64,000 nucleotides of DNA from Sphingomonas profundi (lineage in GTDB: Bacteria; Pseudomonadota; Alphaproteobacteria; Sphingomonadales; Sphingomonadaceae): positions 1,116,001-1,180,000 of the forward strand of contig NZ_CP046535.1 of assembly GCF_009739515.1 (NCBI RefSeq), in the 5' to 3' direction. This document shows positions 37,592-48,644 of the stretch, piece after piece. Each line of letters begins with the position of its first letter. The stretch's first letter is position 1. Made by a program: the position numbers and the translations under genes. The notes beneath the pieces were generated by a model. It saw nothing but the letters and a program-made list of their open reading frames with translations. It was not told the origin of the DNA and ran no database searches.

Positions 37592-38089
37592 ATGCGTGGC
37601 GGATCGATCGGGGCTTGGGCCGCAGGCGGCTGGCTGGCGGCGGCGATGGCCGTTCCCGCACCGGCGGTGGCGCAGAAGGCGCGGGAGGTGCCCTACTGGG
37701 CCTCAATCTCCGCCCCCAAGGCGCGGATGCGGACGGGACCGGGCACCAACTATCCGGCGAACTGGGAATATGTCCGCGCCGAACTGCCGGTGAAGGTGAT
37801 GCAGGTGCGCAACGAGTGGCGCCGGATCGTCGATCCGGACGGAGTGGAGGGCTGGATGCGCTCCTTCCTGCTCAGCGAGCAGCGCACCGCCATCATCCGC
37901 GGCGAGATCCGGCCGCTCCGCGCCGCGCCCGATCGCGGCGCCAAGGTGACGTGGCGGGCGGAGCCGGGCGTGGTCGGCAAGGTCTCCCACTGCGCGGCCG
38001 GCTGGTGCGAGTTCGACGTGCACGGCCGCGCCGGCTATGTCGAGATCGACCATATCTGGGGCGTGGCCGCTGGCGAGACGATCGACTGA
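37592..38089 (+). CDS. Exported SH3-domain protein
   Basis: A 165-residue protein with a signal peptide (WAAGGWLAAAMAVPAPAVAQ) and two SH3-type (SH3b) repeats: RMRTGPGTNYPANWEY...WRRIVDPDGVEGWMRSFLL and PLRAAPDRGAKVTWRAEPG...GWCEFDVHGRAGYVEIDHIWG. Similar proteins bind cell wall. The start is uncertain: GTG at 37562 or 37565 behind a GGAG, or ATG at 37592, which gives the cleanest signal peptide. Its stop overlaps the prepilin peptidase start region, linking it to the secretion operon. Confidence 0.82.
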   Translation: MRGGSIGAWAAGGWLAAAMAVPAPAVAQKAREVPYWASISAPKARMRTGPGTNYPANWEYVRAELPVKVMQVRNEWRRIVDPDGVEGWMRSFLLSEQRTAIIRGEIRPLRAAPDRGAKVTWRAEPGVVGKVSHCAAGWCEFDVHGRAGYVEIDHIWGVAAGETID

Positions 38090-38853
38090 CGCCCGAACTC
38101 CCCCTCTGGCTGTGGCTCTCGCTCGGCGCCCTGCTCGGTGCCGTGGCGGGCAGCTACCTCGCGACGATCGTGGTGCGCTGGCCGCGCGGCGAGGCGGCGC
38201 GCGGGCGATCGCGCTGCGACGGCTGCGGCCGCACGCTGGGCGCGGGCGAACTGGTGCCGCTGCTCTCCTTCGCCATCGCGGGCGGTCGCTGCCGGGCCTG
38301 CGCCGCGCCTATCGACCGGCGTCACCTGGCAATCGAGGCGCTGGCGACCGGGATCGGCGCGGCGGCGCTGCTGGCGGCACCGGGGCCGGCGGGCCTGGCG
38401 GGCGCGCTGTTCGGCTGGCTGCTGCTGGCGCTGGCGGCGCTGGACCTGGAGCATTACTGGCTGCCGAACAGGCTGACGGCGCCGCTGGCGCTGCTGGGCC
38501 TGGCCGGCGGGATCGCCGGGCTGCATCCGGCGCTGCGCGATCGGCTGATCGGCGGCGTCGCCGGCTACGCGGCGCTGGCCGCCATCGCTCATGCCTATCG
38601 GGCGCTGCGCGGCCGGGAGGGGCTGGGGGCGGGGGACGCCAAATTGTTCGGTGCGATCGGCCTGTGGCTCGGCTGGCGGGCGCTGCCGCCGGTGCTGCTG
38701 GCCGCCAGCCTGATCGGCATCGCGGCGCTGATCGCCGCGCGCGCCGGCGGTCGATCGGTCGCGGCGACGACGCGGGTGCCGCTGGGCACGCTGCTGGCGA
38801 TCGCCGCCTGGGGGCTGTGGCTGGGCGAGGCGTCGGGGCTGGGCGCGGGATAG
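38086..38853 (+). CDS. gspO: Prepilin peptidase (type II secretion GspO/PilD)
   Basis: A 255-residue inner-membrane aspartic peptidase and N-methylase for type IV prepilins. The cytoplasmic zinc-binding loop has CDGCG and CRACA; the two catalytic aspartates are in LAALDLEHYWLPN and GLGAGDAKLFGA. About eight membrane segments are visible. No ATG, GTG or TTG occurs at a plausible N-terminus: the only reasonable start is CTG at 38086, which overlaps the previous stop as CTGA. The nearest GTG is about 85 bases upstream in the SH3 gene or inside the first helix. It heads the gsp operon. Confidence 0.9.
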   Translation: MTPELPLWLWLSLGALLGAVAGSYLATIVVRWPRGEAARGRSRCDGCGRTLGAGELVPLLSFAIAGGRCRACAAPIDRRHLAIEALATGIGAAALLAAPGPAGLAGALFGWLLLALAALDLEHYWLPNRLTAPLALLGLAGGIAGLHPALRDRLIGGVAGYAALAAIAHAYRALRGREGLGAGDAKLFGAIGLWLGWRALPPVLLAASLIGIAALIAARAGGRSVAATTRVPLGTLLAIAAWGLWLGEASGLGAG

Positions 38854-44978: not shown

Positions 44979-45509
44979 ATGACGATGACCAAGCGACGGA
45001 CCGAAACTTCCCGTGCGCCGGCGAGGCGCTCCGCCGAGTGCGGCTTCAGGCCGGTAGCGCGCTCCGCCGAACACGGCTTCACGTCCTTTGTGCGTTCCGC
45101 CGAACACGGCTTCACGCTGGTCGAGCTGATGGTCGTGATCGTCATCATCGGGCTCTTGACCACGATCGTCGTCATCAACGTGCTGCCCAGCCAGGACAAG
45201 GCGCGGGTGGAGAAGGCGAAGACCGACATTGCCCTGCTGGAGCAGGCGGCCGAGATGTACCGGCTGGACAATCTCTCCTATCCCGGCGGCGGCGACGGCC
45301 TGAAGGCGCTGGTGAGCGCGCCGGCCGGCGTCGATACCGGGCGCTACCGGCCCGGCGGCTACATCCGCAAGCTGCCGGACGATCCGTGGGGCAACCCCTA
45401 TCACTACGTTTCGCCGGGCAAGCATGGCGCCGTGGACATCTTCAGCTACGGCGCCGACGGCCGCGAGGGTGGCGAAGGGAACGATGCCGATATCGGCAAC
45501 TGGAAGTAA
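44979..45509 (+). CDS. gspG: Major pseudopilin GspG with repeat-extended leader
   Basis: The major pseudopilin of the type II secretion pseudopilus. Cleavage by GspO is expected at G|FTLVELMVVIVIIGLL, after codon 44, leaving a mature protein of about 132 residues with normal GspG features (LDNLSYPGGGDGLKALV, LPDDPWGNPYHYVSPG). The leader is exceptional: 44 residues containing three in-register copies of an 11-codon unit (EHGF-x4-RSA). The start is ATG 44979 with GAAGG before it (ATG 44985 is possible). GspG leaders are usually well under 25 residues. Confidence 0.92.
   Translation: MTMTKRRTETSRAPARRSAECGFRPVARSAEHGFTSFVRSAEHGFTLVELMVVIVIIGLLTTIVVINVLPSQDKARVEKAKTDIALLEQAAEMYRLDNLSYPGGGDGLKALVSAPAGVDTGRYRPGGYIRKLPDDPWGNPYHYVSPGKHGAVDIFSYGADGREGGEGNDADIGNWK
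45036..45116 (+). repeat. 33-base tandem repeats in the gspG leader
   Basis: Units begin at 45036, 45069 and 45102, exactly 33 bases apart. They share CGCTCCGCCGA(A/G) and GGCTTC and encode ECGF-RPVA-RSA, EHGF-TSFV-RSA and EHGF-TLVE. The third is the cleavage site. Confidence 0.95.
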
Positions 45510-45540
45510 CGGCCCCGGCGGCCATCCGCCGGCGGCACGG

Positions 45541-46311
45541 ATGCGGCGGCCGGAAGCGGCCGGGCGGCGGCCCCGCGTCATGCCGCACCCAGGCGCCAAG
45601 CATCACCCTCCCACTTCCCGTCACCCCGGACTTGTTCCGGGGCCTACCCCGCCGCGATCGGCGTCATCAGCGCCTCTCGCAGGGTCGTCGGCCGCGCGGT
45701 GGGCCGCGGAACAAGTCCGGGATGACGGGGAGGGAAAGCGTTTCGCCGAGCACGGCTTCATGTCCTTTGTGCGTTCCGCCGAGCACGGCTTCGTGTCCTT
45801 TGTGCGTTCCGCCGAGCACGGCTTCACGTGCGTGAGGCGTTCCGCCGAACACGGCTTCACGCTTGTGAGGCGTTCCGCCGAACACGGCTTCACGCTGGTC
45901 GAGCTGATGATCGTGATGGCGATCATCGGGCTGCTGACCGGCGCGGTGGTGCTGGCGATGCCCGATCCGCGCGGCGACCTGCGCAGCGATGCCGAGCGTT
46001 TCGCCGCCCGCGCCCACGCCGCGCAGGACAAGGCGGTGATCGAGGCGCGCGCCATCGCCCTGCTGGTGACGAGCGACGGCTACGGCTTCGAGCGGCGCGA
46101 GCGGGGCGCGTGGACCCTGCTGGGCGAGAAGCCGTTCGAGCAGCGGCGCTGGGCCAAGGGGGCGACGGCGCTGGTCGGCGACGTGGGCCAGGCGCGCGCC
46201 CTGTTCGACCCGACCGGCATCGTCGAGCCGCTCGACGTGACCCTGGTGCGCGATGCGACGCGCATGACGGTGCACATCGCCGCCGACGGCTCGGTGCGCG
46301 TCGATGGTTGA
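45541..46311 (+). CDS. gspH: Minor pseudopilin GspH with repeat-extended leader
   Basis: The mature part, from G|FTLVELMIVMAIIGLLTG, is about 140 residues and fits GspH (segment ERFAARAHAAQDKAVIEARAI and a C-terminal half with few conserved marks). The leader is uncertain. From ATG 45541 it would be 116 residues; ATG 45580 or ATG 45760 (inside the repeats) give about 103 or 43 residues. None has a clear Shine-Dalgarno sequence. The frame crosses a repeat pair (45619-45727) and then five copies of the 33-base unit. The frame is open further back inside gspG, which is not used. The last 8 bases overlap gspI. Confidence 0.8.
   Translation: MRRPEAAGRRPRVMPHPGAKHHPPTSRHPGLVPGPTPPRSASSAPLAGSSAARWAAEQVRDDGEGKRFAEHGFMSFVRSAEHGFVSFVRSAEHGFTCVRRSAEHGFTLVRRSAEHGFTLVELMIVMAIIGLLTGAVVLAMPDPRGDLRSDAERFAARAHAAQDKAVIEARAIALLVTSDGYGFERRERGAWTLLGEKPFEQRRWAKGATALVGDVGQARALFDPTGIVEPLDVTLVRDATRMTVHIAADGSVRVDG
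45619..45727. repeat. Inverted repeat pair between gspG and gspH domains
   Basis: CGTCACCCCGGACTTGTTCC (45619 on) and its inverted copy ending CAAGTCCGGGATGACG (to 45727) flank about 57 bases. This is the REP-type element with consensus GTCA-CCCCGGA-TTCCGGGG; the reading frame of gspH runs through it without a stop. Confidence 0.85.
45748..45894 (+). repeat. 33-base tandem repeats in the gspH leader
   Basis: Five units start at 45748, 45781, 45814, 45847 and 45880, all 33 bases apart. The variable four codons read MSFV, VSFV, TCVR and TLVR; the fifth unit is the cleavage site FTLVE. Units one to three share CCTTTGTGCGTTCCGCC or closely related sequence with gspG. Confidence 0.95.
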
Positions 46312-46915
46312 GCCGGCGCCCGGTGCGAGGCTTCGTCACCCCGGACCTGTTCCGGGGACTGCCTTCCGTCGAGCGGTGTCGTCTGCGCCTCCGGTGGCGG
46401 CGTCCGCCGCAAGGTGGGCCCCGGAACAGGTCCGGGGTGACGGGGGAGAGGCGCGTTCCGGCGGACACGGCTTCGCACGTTCGCGACGCTCCGCCGAGCA
46501 CGGCTTCACGGCTTTGCGACGTTCCGCCGAGCACGGCTTCGCGGCTTTGCGACGTTCCGCCGAACACGGCTTCACGTTGATCGAGCTGATGGTCGCGCTG
46601 GCGATCTTCAGCCTGGCGGCGATCGCGCTGCTGCGGCTGGAGGGGGCGACCGTGTCGCAGACCGCGATCCTGCGCGATCGGACGATCGGCCAGATCGTCG
46701 CGCGCAACGTGGCGGTGGAGGCGCTGACCGATCGTGGCGCCCCGCCGCTCGGCCTGCTGAACGGCGAGGAGCGCAATGGCGGTCGGCTCTGGCACTGGGT
46801 GCGGCGGACGACCAAGACGCCCGATCCGCGCGTGCAGCGGATCGACGTCTCGGTGACGGACGATGACGGGCAGCGCGCCGGCGTGCTCACCGTGTTCCGG
46901 CTGTCTCTGGCGTGA
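46304..46915 (+). CDS. gspI: Minor pseudopilin GspI with repeat-extended leader
   Basis: The mature protein from G|FTLIELMVALAIFSLAAIALL is about 114 residues and matches GspI (ARNVAVEALTD, WHWVRRTTKTPDPRVQRIDVSVTDD). ATG at 46304 overlaps the gspH stop by 8 bases, as expected in this operon, but makes a leader of 89 residues. That leader includes a peptide encoded by a repeat pair (HPGPVPGTAFRR...APEQVRGDG) and four 11-residue repeats. No later ATG, GTG or TTG is in frame before the repeats. GTG at 46912 of gspJ overlaps its stop. Confidence 0.88.
   Translation: MVEPAPGARLRHPGPVPGTAFRRAVSSAPPVAASAARWAPEQVRGDGGEARSGGHGFARSRRSAEHGFTALRRSAEHGFAALRRSAEHGFTLIELMVALAIFSLAAIALLRLEGATVSQTAILRDRTIGQIVARNVAVEALTDRGAPPLGLLNGEERNGGRLWHWVRRTTKTPDPRVQRIDVSVTDDDGQRAGVLTVFRLSLA
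46334..46442. repeat. Inverted repeat pair within the gspI leader
   Basis: CGTCACCCCGGACCTGTTCC (46334 on) and the inverted copy GGAACAGGTCCGGGGTGACG (to 46442) flank about 60 bases. It is the same repeat family as at 45619-45727 and stays in frame with gspI. Confidence 0.87.
46463..46576 (+). repeat. 33-base tandem repeats in the gspI leader
   Basis: Four units start at 46463, 46496, 46529 and 46562. The first is degenerate (GHGF-ARSR), then EHGF-TALR, EHGF-AALR and the cleavage unit EHGF-TLIE. Confidence 0.95.
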
Positions 46916-47664
46916 TCGTCGATGCCCGCCCTGCCGGCAGCCGGGAGGCGGGCGTGACGGTGCCAGTGCCGCCGCGACCGGCCGGGTGCGGCTTCGAAGG
47001 TTCGCCGCGCTCCACCGAACACGGCTTCGAGCCTTCGCAGCGTTCCGCCGAACACGGCTTCGAGCTTTCGCAGCGTTCCGCCGAACACGGCTTCACGCTG
47101 ATCGAGCTGATGGTGGCGTTGTTCGTGTTTGGGCTGCTGGCGGCGGCGGGGGTGGCGCTGCTGGGATTCAGCGCCAGGGCGCAGGGTGCTGCGGGGGAGA
47201 AGCTGGCGGAGATCGCGGCGATCCGGCGGGTCTCGGCGATCCTGACGGCCGATCTCGCCCAGGCCGCGCCGCGCATCAGCCGCAGTGCCAGCGGGGCGGC
47301 GCAGGTCGCCTTCTTCGGCTCGGCCGGCGGCGATCGGCAGGTGGCGCTCGCCTTCGTCCGGCGCGGGTGGGAGAACCCCTATGGGGCGCCGCGCGCCTCG
47401 CTGCAGAAGGTGCAGTACCGGCTGGTCGGCGACCGGCTGGAGCGGAGCGCCGCGCCGATGCTGGACGGCGCCGAGCCGGGGCCGCCCGCCGTCATCATCC
47501 GTGGCGTGCGGTCAATGAGCCTGCGCTACCGCCTTGGCGGCGAGTGGCGCGAGCGGTGGGATGCCACGCGCGCCGACGCCGTGCCGCGCGCGGTGGAAAT
47601 GGTGCTCGACATAGACGGGATCGGCCCGGTGCGGCAGGTGTTCCAGACGGGCACCGGCCTGTGA
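46912..47664 (+). CDS. gspJ: Minor pseudopilin GspJ with repeat-extended leader
   Basis: A 250-residue precursor; the mature GspJ from G|FTLIELMVALFVFGLLAAAG is about 190 residues, a normal size, with RRVSAILTADLAQAAPRI and MSLRYRLGGEWRERWDA in the usual positions. GTG at 46912 overlaps the gspI stop. The 60-residue leader ends with four copies of the 11-codon unit, whose variable part here is EGSP, EPSQ and ELSQ. It is overlapped by gspK through GTGA. Confidence 0.92.
   Translation: MIVDARPAGSREAGVTVPVPPRPAGCGFEGSPRSTEHGFEPSQRSAEHGFELSQRSAEHGFTLIELMVALFVFGLLAAAGVALLGFSARAQGAAGEKLAEIAAIRRVSAILTADLAQAAPRISRSASGAAQVAFFGSAGGDRQVALAFVRRGWENPYGAPRASLQKVQYRLVGDRLERSAAPMLDGAEPGPPAVIIRGVRSMSLRYRLGGEWRERWDATRADAVPRAVEMVLDIDGIGPVRQVFQTGTGL
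46984..47097 (+). repeat. 33-base tandem repeats in the gspJ leader
   Basis: Four units start at 46984, 47017, 47050 and 47083, each 33 bases, coding GCGF-EGSP-RST, EHGF-EPSQ-RSA, EHGF-ELSQ-RSA and the cleavage unit EHGF-TLIE. Confidence 0.95.
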
Positions 47665-48644
47665 CGGCGCCGGCGCGGGAGCGTGGCGCCGCCCTGTTGG
47701 CGGTGCTGCTGCTGGTGGCGGTGATGGCGGCGATCTCGGTCGTGGCGCTCGAGAAATTGCGGCTGGCCACCAGCCTCGCCACCAACGCCGCCGCGCTGGA
47801 TCAGGCGCGCGCCTACGCGTTCGGCGCCGAGGCGCTGGCGATGACGAAGGTGGGCCTGCTCGACGGCCGCCAGACCGGCACCACCACCCTGGCGGGCGGC
47901 TGGAACGGGCGCGTCACGCGCCTGCCGATTCCGGGCGGCATCGCCGCCCTGCGCGTGCGCGACGGCGGCAACTGCTTCAACCTGAACAGCCTGGCGGAAG
48001 GGATCTCCGCCAGCCAGCTTACCGCGCGGCCGGCCGGCATCGCCCAGTTCCTGTCGCTGATGCGGCTGCTGGGCATCGCCGATCCGGATGCGCGGCGGGT
48101 GGCGGCGGGCCTGGCCGACTGGCTGGACACGGACTCGACGGCGATCCCCGACGGCGCGGAGGACAGCGACTATCTGCGCGCGCAGAAGCCCTATCGCGCC
48201 GGCAACACCCTGCTTTCCGAGGTGAGCGAACTGCGCGCCGTATCGGGCGTGACGAGCGACATCTACCGCATCCTGCGGCCGTGGGTGTGCGCCCTGCCGA
48301 CCACCGACATGTCGCCGTTGAACGTGAACACGCTGCTGCCCGATCAGTCCGTCCTGCTGGCCATGCTGCTGCCGTACCGGATGGATGCGGCGCGGGCGGC
48401 GCAGGTGCTGGTGCAGCGGCCGCCGCTCGGCTGGAACAGCATCGCCGAGTTCTGGGATCAGCCGGGCCTAGCCGGCGTGCCGCCCGAGGCGGACGTGCGG
48501 AGCCAGCCGCAATTGCGCACCCGCTGGTTCGCGCTCGACCTTGACGTGGAACTGGGCGGCGCGCAGGTGACGGAGACGGCGCTGATCGATGGCGGGCTGA
48601 CCCCCGCCAAGCTGGTGGTGCGGCGTTGGGGGATCGACGAATGA
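47661..48644 (+). CDS. gspK: Minor pseudopilin GspK
   Basis: A 327-residue pseudopilin that caps the pseudopilus tip. The short leader MTAPARERG precedes AALLAVLLLVAVMAAISVVAL; as usual for GspK the mature N-terminus lacks phenylalanine and the glutamate at +5. The central alpha domain includes LADWLDTDSTAIPDGAEDSDY with the calcium-binding acidic residues and ends with a NVNTL segment. In contrast to gspG-J it has no 33-base repeats. GTG at 47661 overlaps the gspJ stop. Confidence 0.93.
   Translation: MTAPARERGAALLAVLLLVAVMAAISVVALEKLRLATSLATNAAALDQARAYAFGAEALAMTKVGLLDGRQTGTTTLAGGWNGRVTRLPIPGGIAALRVRDGGNCFNLNSLAEGISASQLTARPAGIAQFLSLMRLLGIADPDARRVAAGLADWLDTDSTAIPDGAEDSDYLRAQKPYRAGNTLLSEVSELRAVSGVTSDIYRILRPWVCALPTTDMSPLNVNTLLPDQSVLLAMLLPYRMDAARAAQVLVQRPPLGWNSIAEFWDQPGLAGVPPEADVRSQPQLRTRWFALDLDVELGGAQVTETALIDGGLTPAKLVVRRWGIDE

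Follow-up and report, generated by a model that had tools for sequence, protein, structure and literature searches.

The window analyzed here, a 64,000-nucleotide stretch (positions 1,116,001-1,180,000) of the complete 4.54 Mb genome of Sphingomonas profundi, contains a type II secretion operon (gspO, gspC, D, E, F, G, H, I, J, K, L, M, N), whose adjacent pseudopilin genes gspG, gspH, gspI and gspJ carry tandem arrays of a short in-frame unit at the prepilin peptidase site. Comparison with other loci revealed that the unit of change is a cassette of approximately 9 variable bases and a near-invariant 24-bp block (CGTTCCGCCGAACACGGCTTCACG) encoding R-S-A-E-H-G↓F-T (the arrow marks the cleavage point). 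The cassette follows directly on the native Gly-Phe of gspG, H, I or J and keeps the reading frame. Its insertion, always a multiple of 33 bp in length, displaces the old site upstream by 11 residues and brings the G↓F of the cassette up against TLVELM and the hydrophobic helix. It is reasonably probable that the arrays are stacks of such cassettes, tolerated in the leader and spread by recombination at the prepilin site. Each new cassette probably takes over as the working site, leaving the older sites stranded upstream.

The insertion can be seen in pairs of empty and filled genes. In two gspG genes that are 94% identical downstream, the empty locus (L215) reads ...RRENGF↓TLVELM and the filled one (L148) ...RPANGF↓TPRRRSAEHGF↓TLVELM. 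In DNA terms, ...CGTCGTGAGAAC GGCTTC ACGCTGGTCGAG stands against ...CGCCCGGCGAAC GGCTTC ACGCCCCGTCGG CGTTCCGCCGAACAC GGCTTC ACGCTGGTCGAG, a clean gain of 33 bp between two GGCTTCACG. Further pairs, L217/L126 (gspG) and L093/L117 (gspI, two cassettes), follow the same 33n-bp pattern, and the empty member of the pairs lacks RSAEHGF. Moreover, a differently worded G-F (EEGF, EDGF, DDGF, NNGF) often lies exactly 11 residues above the RSAEHG↓F working site. A native GF at -11 was present above 9 of 33 core-topped sites in a set of loci chosen by GspJ similarity and above 36 of 91 in a set chosen by the core (the two sets have some genomes in common), compared with 0 of 221 controls without the core. 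The Thr next to Phe+1 is encoded by ACG at 147 of 159 core sites versus 172 of 339 empty sites, and the codon that follows is similar in both, which places the downstream boundary of a 24-bp conserved block after ACG. On the upstream side, the native G-F above a cassette is spelled GGCTTC in 78% of cases versus 58% at empty sites (P 0.0009, uncorrected for relatedness), as expected if GGCTTC acts as a junction. Within arrays, 215 in-register copies contained one 3-bp in-frame deletion and no frameshifts.

In the window, each 33-bp unit consists of a 21-base core, CGTTCCGCCGARCACGGCTTC (RSAEHGF), and a 12-base variable spacer. Reading of the sequence and its translation, with the genes identified by Pfam and NCBIfam, confirmed two claims of the first-pass annotation: the units occur in 3, 5, 4 and 4 copies in gspG, gspH, gspI and gspJ, respectively, all in frame, and the G-F step is present in all 16 of them, with Glu+5 and the hydrophobic helix only at the last copy of each gene. 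The E-H-G-F wording attributed to every unit is intact in 13 of the 16, but the first copy of every array is degenerate (AECGF, RFAEHGF, GGHGF and AGCGF), and the unit begins slightly before position 45036, previously given as the start of the repeat region. By their appearance, these first copies look like displaced native sites. With up to 3 mismatches allowed, the 21-mer core matched the window 15 times against 0.03 expected by chance, the 16th copy (the first in gspJ) being more degenerate. No unit was found outside gspG-J in the complete genome, the other matches carrying 2-3 mismatches and being as numerous as in the control. An assembly artefact, which had been considered, is ruled out by the same arrays in dozens of independently assembled genomes.

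The site had been described as amplified, which is correct as far as tandem duplication goes. The copies lie head to tail, their number varies among relatives, neighbours within an array have similar spacers (identity 0.74, 32% identical) and slippage surely increases their number wherever a cassette already exists. The same features, together with a unit that amounts to RRSAEHG↓FTLV repeated and one TLVR junction within the gspH array exactly as local duplication predicts, would fit an ordinary coding minisatellite, in which the cleavage-site region of each gene (RRSAEHGFTLV) slipped and was duplicated locally, with no movement between genes. This origin is unlikely, since it leaves unexplained: (i) one and the same 21-24 bp sequence, containing rare codons, shared by four paralogues and many genera, (ii) the differently worded native G-F (EEGF, DDGF, NNGF) above the first copy and (iii) the absence of RSAEHGF from the empty member of the empty/filled pairs. 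These pairs and the GF at -11 indicate that array formation begins when a foreign-looking cassette is inserted after the native G-F.

A search of related genomes for the unit before GspG-J, suggested by the first-pass annotation, found a pair of consecutive E[HN]GF units in 23 of the 398 Sphingomonadaceae genomes, spread over 12 of 96 genera, and none in the control, while a single core with one mismatch allowed matched 28 Sphingomonadaceae genomes. A scan of 84,980 species genomes (GTDB) for the exact core gave 81 stretches. Almost all of the 80 loci read from these are titled Sphingomonas, Sphingobium, Hephaestia, Sphingorhabdus or sphingomonad metagenome-assembled genomes (MAGs). The 80 loci, the window and its two nearest relatives hold 344 cores with at most 2 mismatches. 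Of these, 342 keep the reading frame and lie at a prepilin site or above it, 341 in the 11-codon register; the unit is thus not a dispersed repeat with copies at unrelated places. The two exceptions are a chance match in a Deltaproteobacteria MAG and a stray copy elsewhere in the gsp operon of Sphingobium scionense (L114, near 6394). The latter, an out-of-frame core (QQ variant) in inverted-repeat DNA, 155 nt above the gspI site, is the only real copy outside the array register. A generic GF-33nt-GFTL pattern detected no array in 362 other alphaproteobacterial genomes, only two single chance-like matches. No unit was carried by viral contigs or phages, and plasmids gave a single weak partial match, in an ABC transporter gene.

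Among the 88 loci picked by GspJ similarity alone, arrays were found in 22 and an RSAEHGF-like site in 35, figures that overstate the family-wide rate, as this set was ranked by likeness to the window. There are 1-7 copies per gene across the survey (calls required at least 4 of the 7 core residues; gene labels follow a simple motif rule, with some gspG labelled H). The copy-number variation expected among relatives was found in gspJ of two close Sphingobium, with 5 versus 2 copies and downstream DNA 96% identical, and the earlier suggestion that the leader tolerates repeat growth is likewise borne out. On the GspJ tree, presence and absence require 12-13 changes (shuffled means 17 and 21), pointing to a patchy presence with repeated gain or loss. 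Five genomes have one recognisable cassette and no other close copy, so that the donor has been lost or resided in another genome. Two further loci should be mentioned: L087, titled Microvirga sp. SRT01, carries arrays and a Sphingomonas-like gspJ site, and may be wrongly titled or a foreign contig, while in L134, a Sphingobium MAG, the G, H and I arrays mix RSAEN, RSAQQ and RSAGQ versions, helpful for ordering the origin of core variants.

The codons of the core are nearly fixed. In 80 exact RSAEHGF copies, taken from the GspJ-chosen set because the core-chosen one is biased toward exact cores, they are CGT 74, TCC 78, GCC 78, GAA 71, CAC 78, GGC 77 and TTC 79; in the genes of this operon, CGT accounts for 7% of Arg codons and GAA for 15% of Glu codons. 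No such constancy is seen in the codons for Leu, Val and Glu directly after the site, which vary freely. Spacer identity between loci is about 0.49 (48-50%), near saturation. Between different genes of one locus it reaches 0.568 (null 0.484, standard deviation 0.018, maximum 0.543; 0 of 300 permutations as high), and copying within the operon therefore happens. In 118 sandwiched copies (internal copies with others on both sides), the core is 4-fold less divergent between neighbours than the spacer (0.043 vs 0.167 per site) and 111 retain G-F. Both kinds of site are constrained, synonymous as well as non-synonymous, with non-synonymous changes about half as frequent per opportunity; the stem letters GCC/GGC vary least and the third position of Ala is almost never changed. 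The commonest double variant, GCCCAACAGGGC (15 exact copies), keeps the stem pairing by a compensatory change. Degeneracy is greatest in the top copies (2.60 deviations per 21 nt, compared with 0.56 at the real site), yet G (0.99) and F (0.92) are kept, as expected of displaced native sites.

The slow change of the core relative to the spacer, the steady stem letters and Ala third position, and the preserved stem of GCCCAACAGGGC are what selection on DNA or RNA would produce, with the core serving as a protein-binding site, a small hairpin (GCCG-AACA-CGGC) or an mRNA control element in the leaders. We regard this as improbable: the arrays of the window are not predicted to fold in any remarkable way (z +0.96, -2.0, -0.5, -1.8), the compensatory change, mainly found in Sphingobium, may have arisen only once, the element is confined to prepilin sites and many relatives are without it. 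A stable RNA structure is not supported, as folding was not clearly better than that of shuffled sequence and no Rfam family matched at its gathering score. The minus strand of positions 45787-45843 has a weak Rfam likeness to Chlorobi-1 RNA (21 bits against a gathering score of 50, E 0.019), probably by chance.

It is very doubtful that the repeated G-F sites function in the protein, as decoys or alternate cut points that slow or tune processing by GspO. The intact GF in sandwiched copies and the rarer non-synonymous changes would agree with such a role, as would a review in which prepilins are cut after Gly, the critical residue, while Glu5 is dispensable for processing (PMC4471445), so that cutting is not prevented by the mere lack of Glu+5. 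Internal copies of some relatives do carry Glu at +5 (e.g. GF-TPSE, GF-TFSE). Nevertheless, the hydrophobic helix does not adjoin the upstream G-F steps, which makes cutting there unlikely. The patchy presence and free change of copy number speak against a needed function, and the constraint extends to synonymous sites, which protein function does not explain. Nothing in the analysis shows the decoy action, slowed processing or altered membrane insertion proposed by the first-pass annotation, and we infer that the upstream "decoys" are displaced sites.

For the stacked-cassette reading, the following course may be envisaged. A cassette would bring a complete leader end (basic residues, Gly-1, Phe+1), and the prepilin would still be cleavable; with a basic leader and a G↓F in every cassette, the gene should continue to work. 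GspO would remove the whole leader at the last site, so that insertions are tolerated, only the last G-F, adjoining the helix, being cut and the displaced sites persisting as uncut fossils. Spread and multiplication might proceed by short-tract recombination or template switching, with the conserved cleavage-site DNA common to all four genes (GGCTTCACG...GAGCTGATG) as downstream homology and GGCTTC of the native site or of an array copy as the upstream junction. Less certainly, copying may use one-sided homology at the shared site DNA and a template switch at GGCTTC. Cassettes would be copied from gene to gene within an operon's set of four and would also pass between sphingomonads by DNA transfer, the disposable leader being the harbour where copies persist.

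Several observations weigh against this reading. A native GF 11 codons above was not seen in 79 of 124 core-topped cases, where the site may have eroded or another route may have been taken. Copying of whole cassettes predicts far wider spacer sharing than the 48-50% identity between loci, so that something further must keep the core constant, be it purifying constraint, conversion of the core alone or a restriction of propagation to intact cores. Neither a donor/recipient event nor an enzyme for cassette spread was identified, although associated enzymes were not searched for systematically. Neither the copies nor the related genomes are independent of one another, and the start codon of gspH may lie inside its own array. 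More tentatively, the 24-bp core could be a minimal selfish element, with the prepilin peptidase site as its sole habitat, recombining among pseudopilin genes and between species because every copy restores the motif that it enters. The sequence would then be kept by its ability to propagate and not by its use to the host.

The genes, arrays and inverted repeats are collected in Table 1. N_methyl Pfam matches were obtained in all four genes, and the N_methyl and T2SS-G/H/I/J domains are found at the last copy, where Gly-1, an aromatic residue at +1, Glu+5 and about 20 hydrophobic residues, i.e. the features of a class III signal peptide, are also present. GspO is expected to cut at the last G↓F of each gene. 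The leader of class III peptides, 6-26 residues long, stays cytoplasmic and the helix after it is the membrane anchor (PMC4471445). The leaders here are longer: that of gspH has 116 residues from the ATG at 45541 or 43 from the ATG at 45760, inside the array, the start being uncertain. By their mature domains, the gspG-J products are clearly pseudopilins and the leader-length rule is descriptive. Translation starting within each unit (GTG or ATG occur in many spacers) was rejected for gspI and gspJ, whose starts overlap the upstream genes, and is possible for gspH; no Shine-Dalgarno-like sequence was seen by eye within the units. GspK, as previously stated, is normal, with a 9-residue leader (MTAPARERG↓AALL). 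Elsewhere in this genome, at ~2.20 Mb, another type II pseudopilin cluster (G000:C1:2200542-2207688) has, in the genes read, ordinary short leaders without repeats (e.g. MRAAGRHERG↓MTLVEM, MMRAEAG↓FSLIEA), which, with the scan of 362 genomes, rules out arrays as a general prepilin feature.

Table 1 Features of the type II secretion operon in the window (positions within the window).
Feature	Position	Strand	Evidence or remark
gspG array, RSAECGF-RPVA-RSAEHGF-TSFV-RSAEHGF	45027..45113	+	3 copies; last = predicted working site
gspH array	45739..45891	+	5 copies
gspI array	46454..46573	+	4 copies
gspJ array	about 46975..47094	+	4 copies; first degenerate, PAGCGF
REP-like inverted repeat directly before gspH array	45605..45741	+	51-nt arms, 80% complementary
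REP-like inverted repeat inside translated gspI leader	46334..46442	+	38-nt arms, 87% complementary
GspO prepilin peptidase, enzyme expected to cut the sites	38089..38853	+	Pfam Peptidase_A24 1.6e-21, A24_N_bact 2.3e-19
gspG, major pseudopilin; leader 42-44 residues	44979..45509	+	T2SSG 4e-39; TIGR01710 above cut-off
gspH open frame	45424..46311	+	GspH Pfam 6.9e-6; TIGR01708 80.1 bits, cut-off 80
gspI; ATG overlaps gspH stop; leader 89 residues	46304..46915	+	T2SSI 3.2e-20; TIGR01707
gspJ; GTG overlaps gspI stop; leader 60 residues	46912..47664	+	T2SSJ 1.2e-36; TIGR01711
gspK; ordinary short leader, without repeat	47661..48644	+	NF037980 8e-75; sequence

The two repeats resembling repetitive extragenic palindromes (REP-like) are centred on CACCCCGGACYTGTTCCGGGG, a motif found at about 6 places genome-wide; with two of these in this operon, copying between the gspH and gspI leaders is suggested. 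Repeat-like read-through was recognised in 30 of 511 leaders and at 19 of 159 core sites, and the palindromes of the window fit a general tolerance of leaders for inserts.

No published description was found in the literature on the motif, on tandem repeats in pseudopilin leaders, on long leaders or on the sphingomonad type II secretion system. The arrays are an example of a conserved processing motif overrun by its own copies, in which a protease site is a safe harbour because everything before the last copy is discarded. They make testable, in environmental bacteria that are harmless, the choice of prepilin peptidase among identical G-F steps, the limit of leader growth, and the movement of short DNA modules between paralogous genes and species. 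In practical terms, automatic calls of start sites and signal peptides are unreliable in these genes.

Compared with the class III signal peptide (the type IV prepilin leader processed by GspO/PilD), the arrays are alike in the basic leader, Gly-1, Phe+1, Glu+5 and helix at the last copy, and differ in their leader length of 42-116 residues and in having as many as five G-F steps. In-frame coding repeats and Rickettsia palindromic elements are similar in that short repeated DNA is tolerated in frame in protein-coding genes; in contrast, the cassette is not dispersed, is confined to a single functional site in four genes, where it always enters at the same codon boundary, and re-creates the motif it interrupts. 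In this last respect it resembles tRNA-targeted integrating elements and inteins in conserved motifs, which restore the essential motif and are hence harmless, but the cassette is only 33 bp long, has no enzyme and undergoes neither excision nor splicing.

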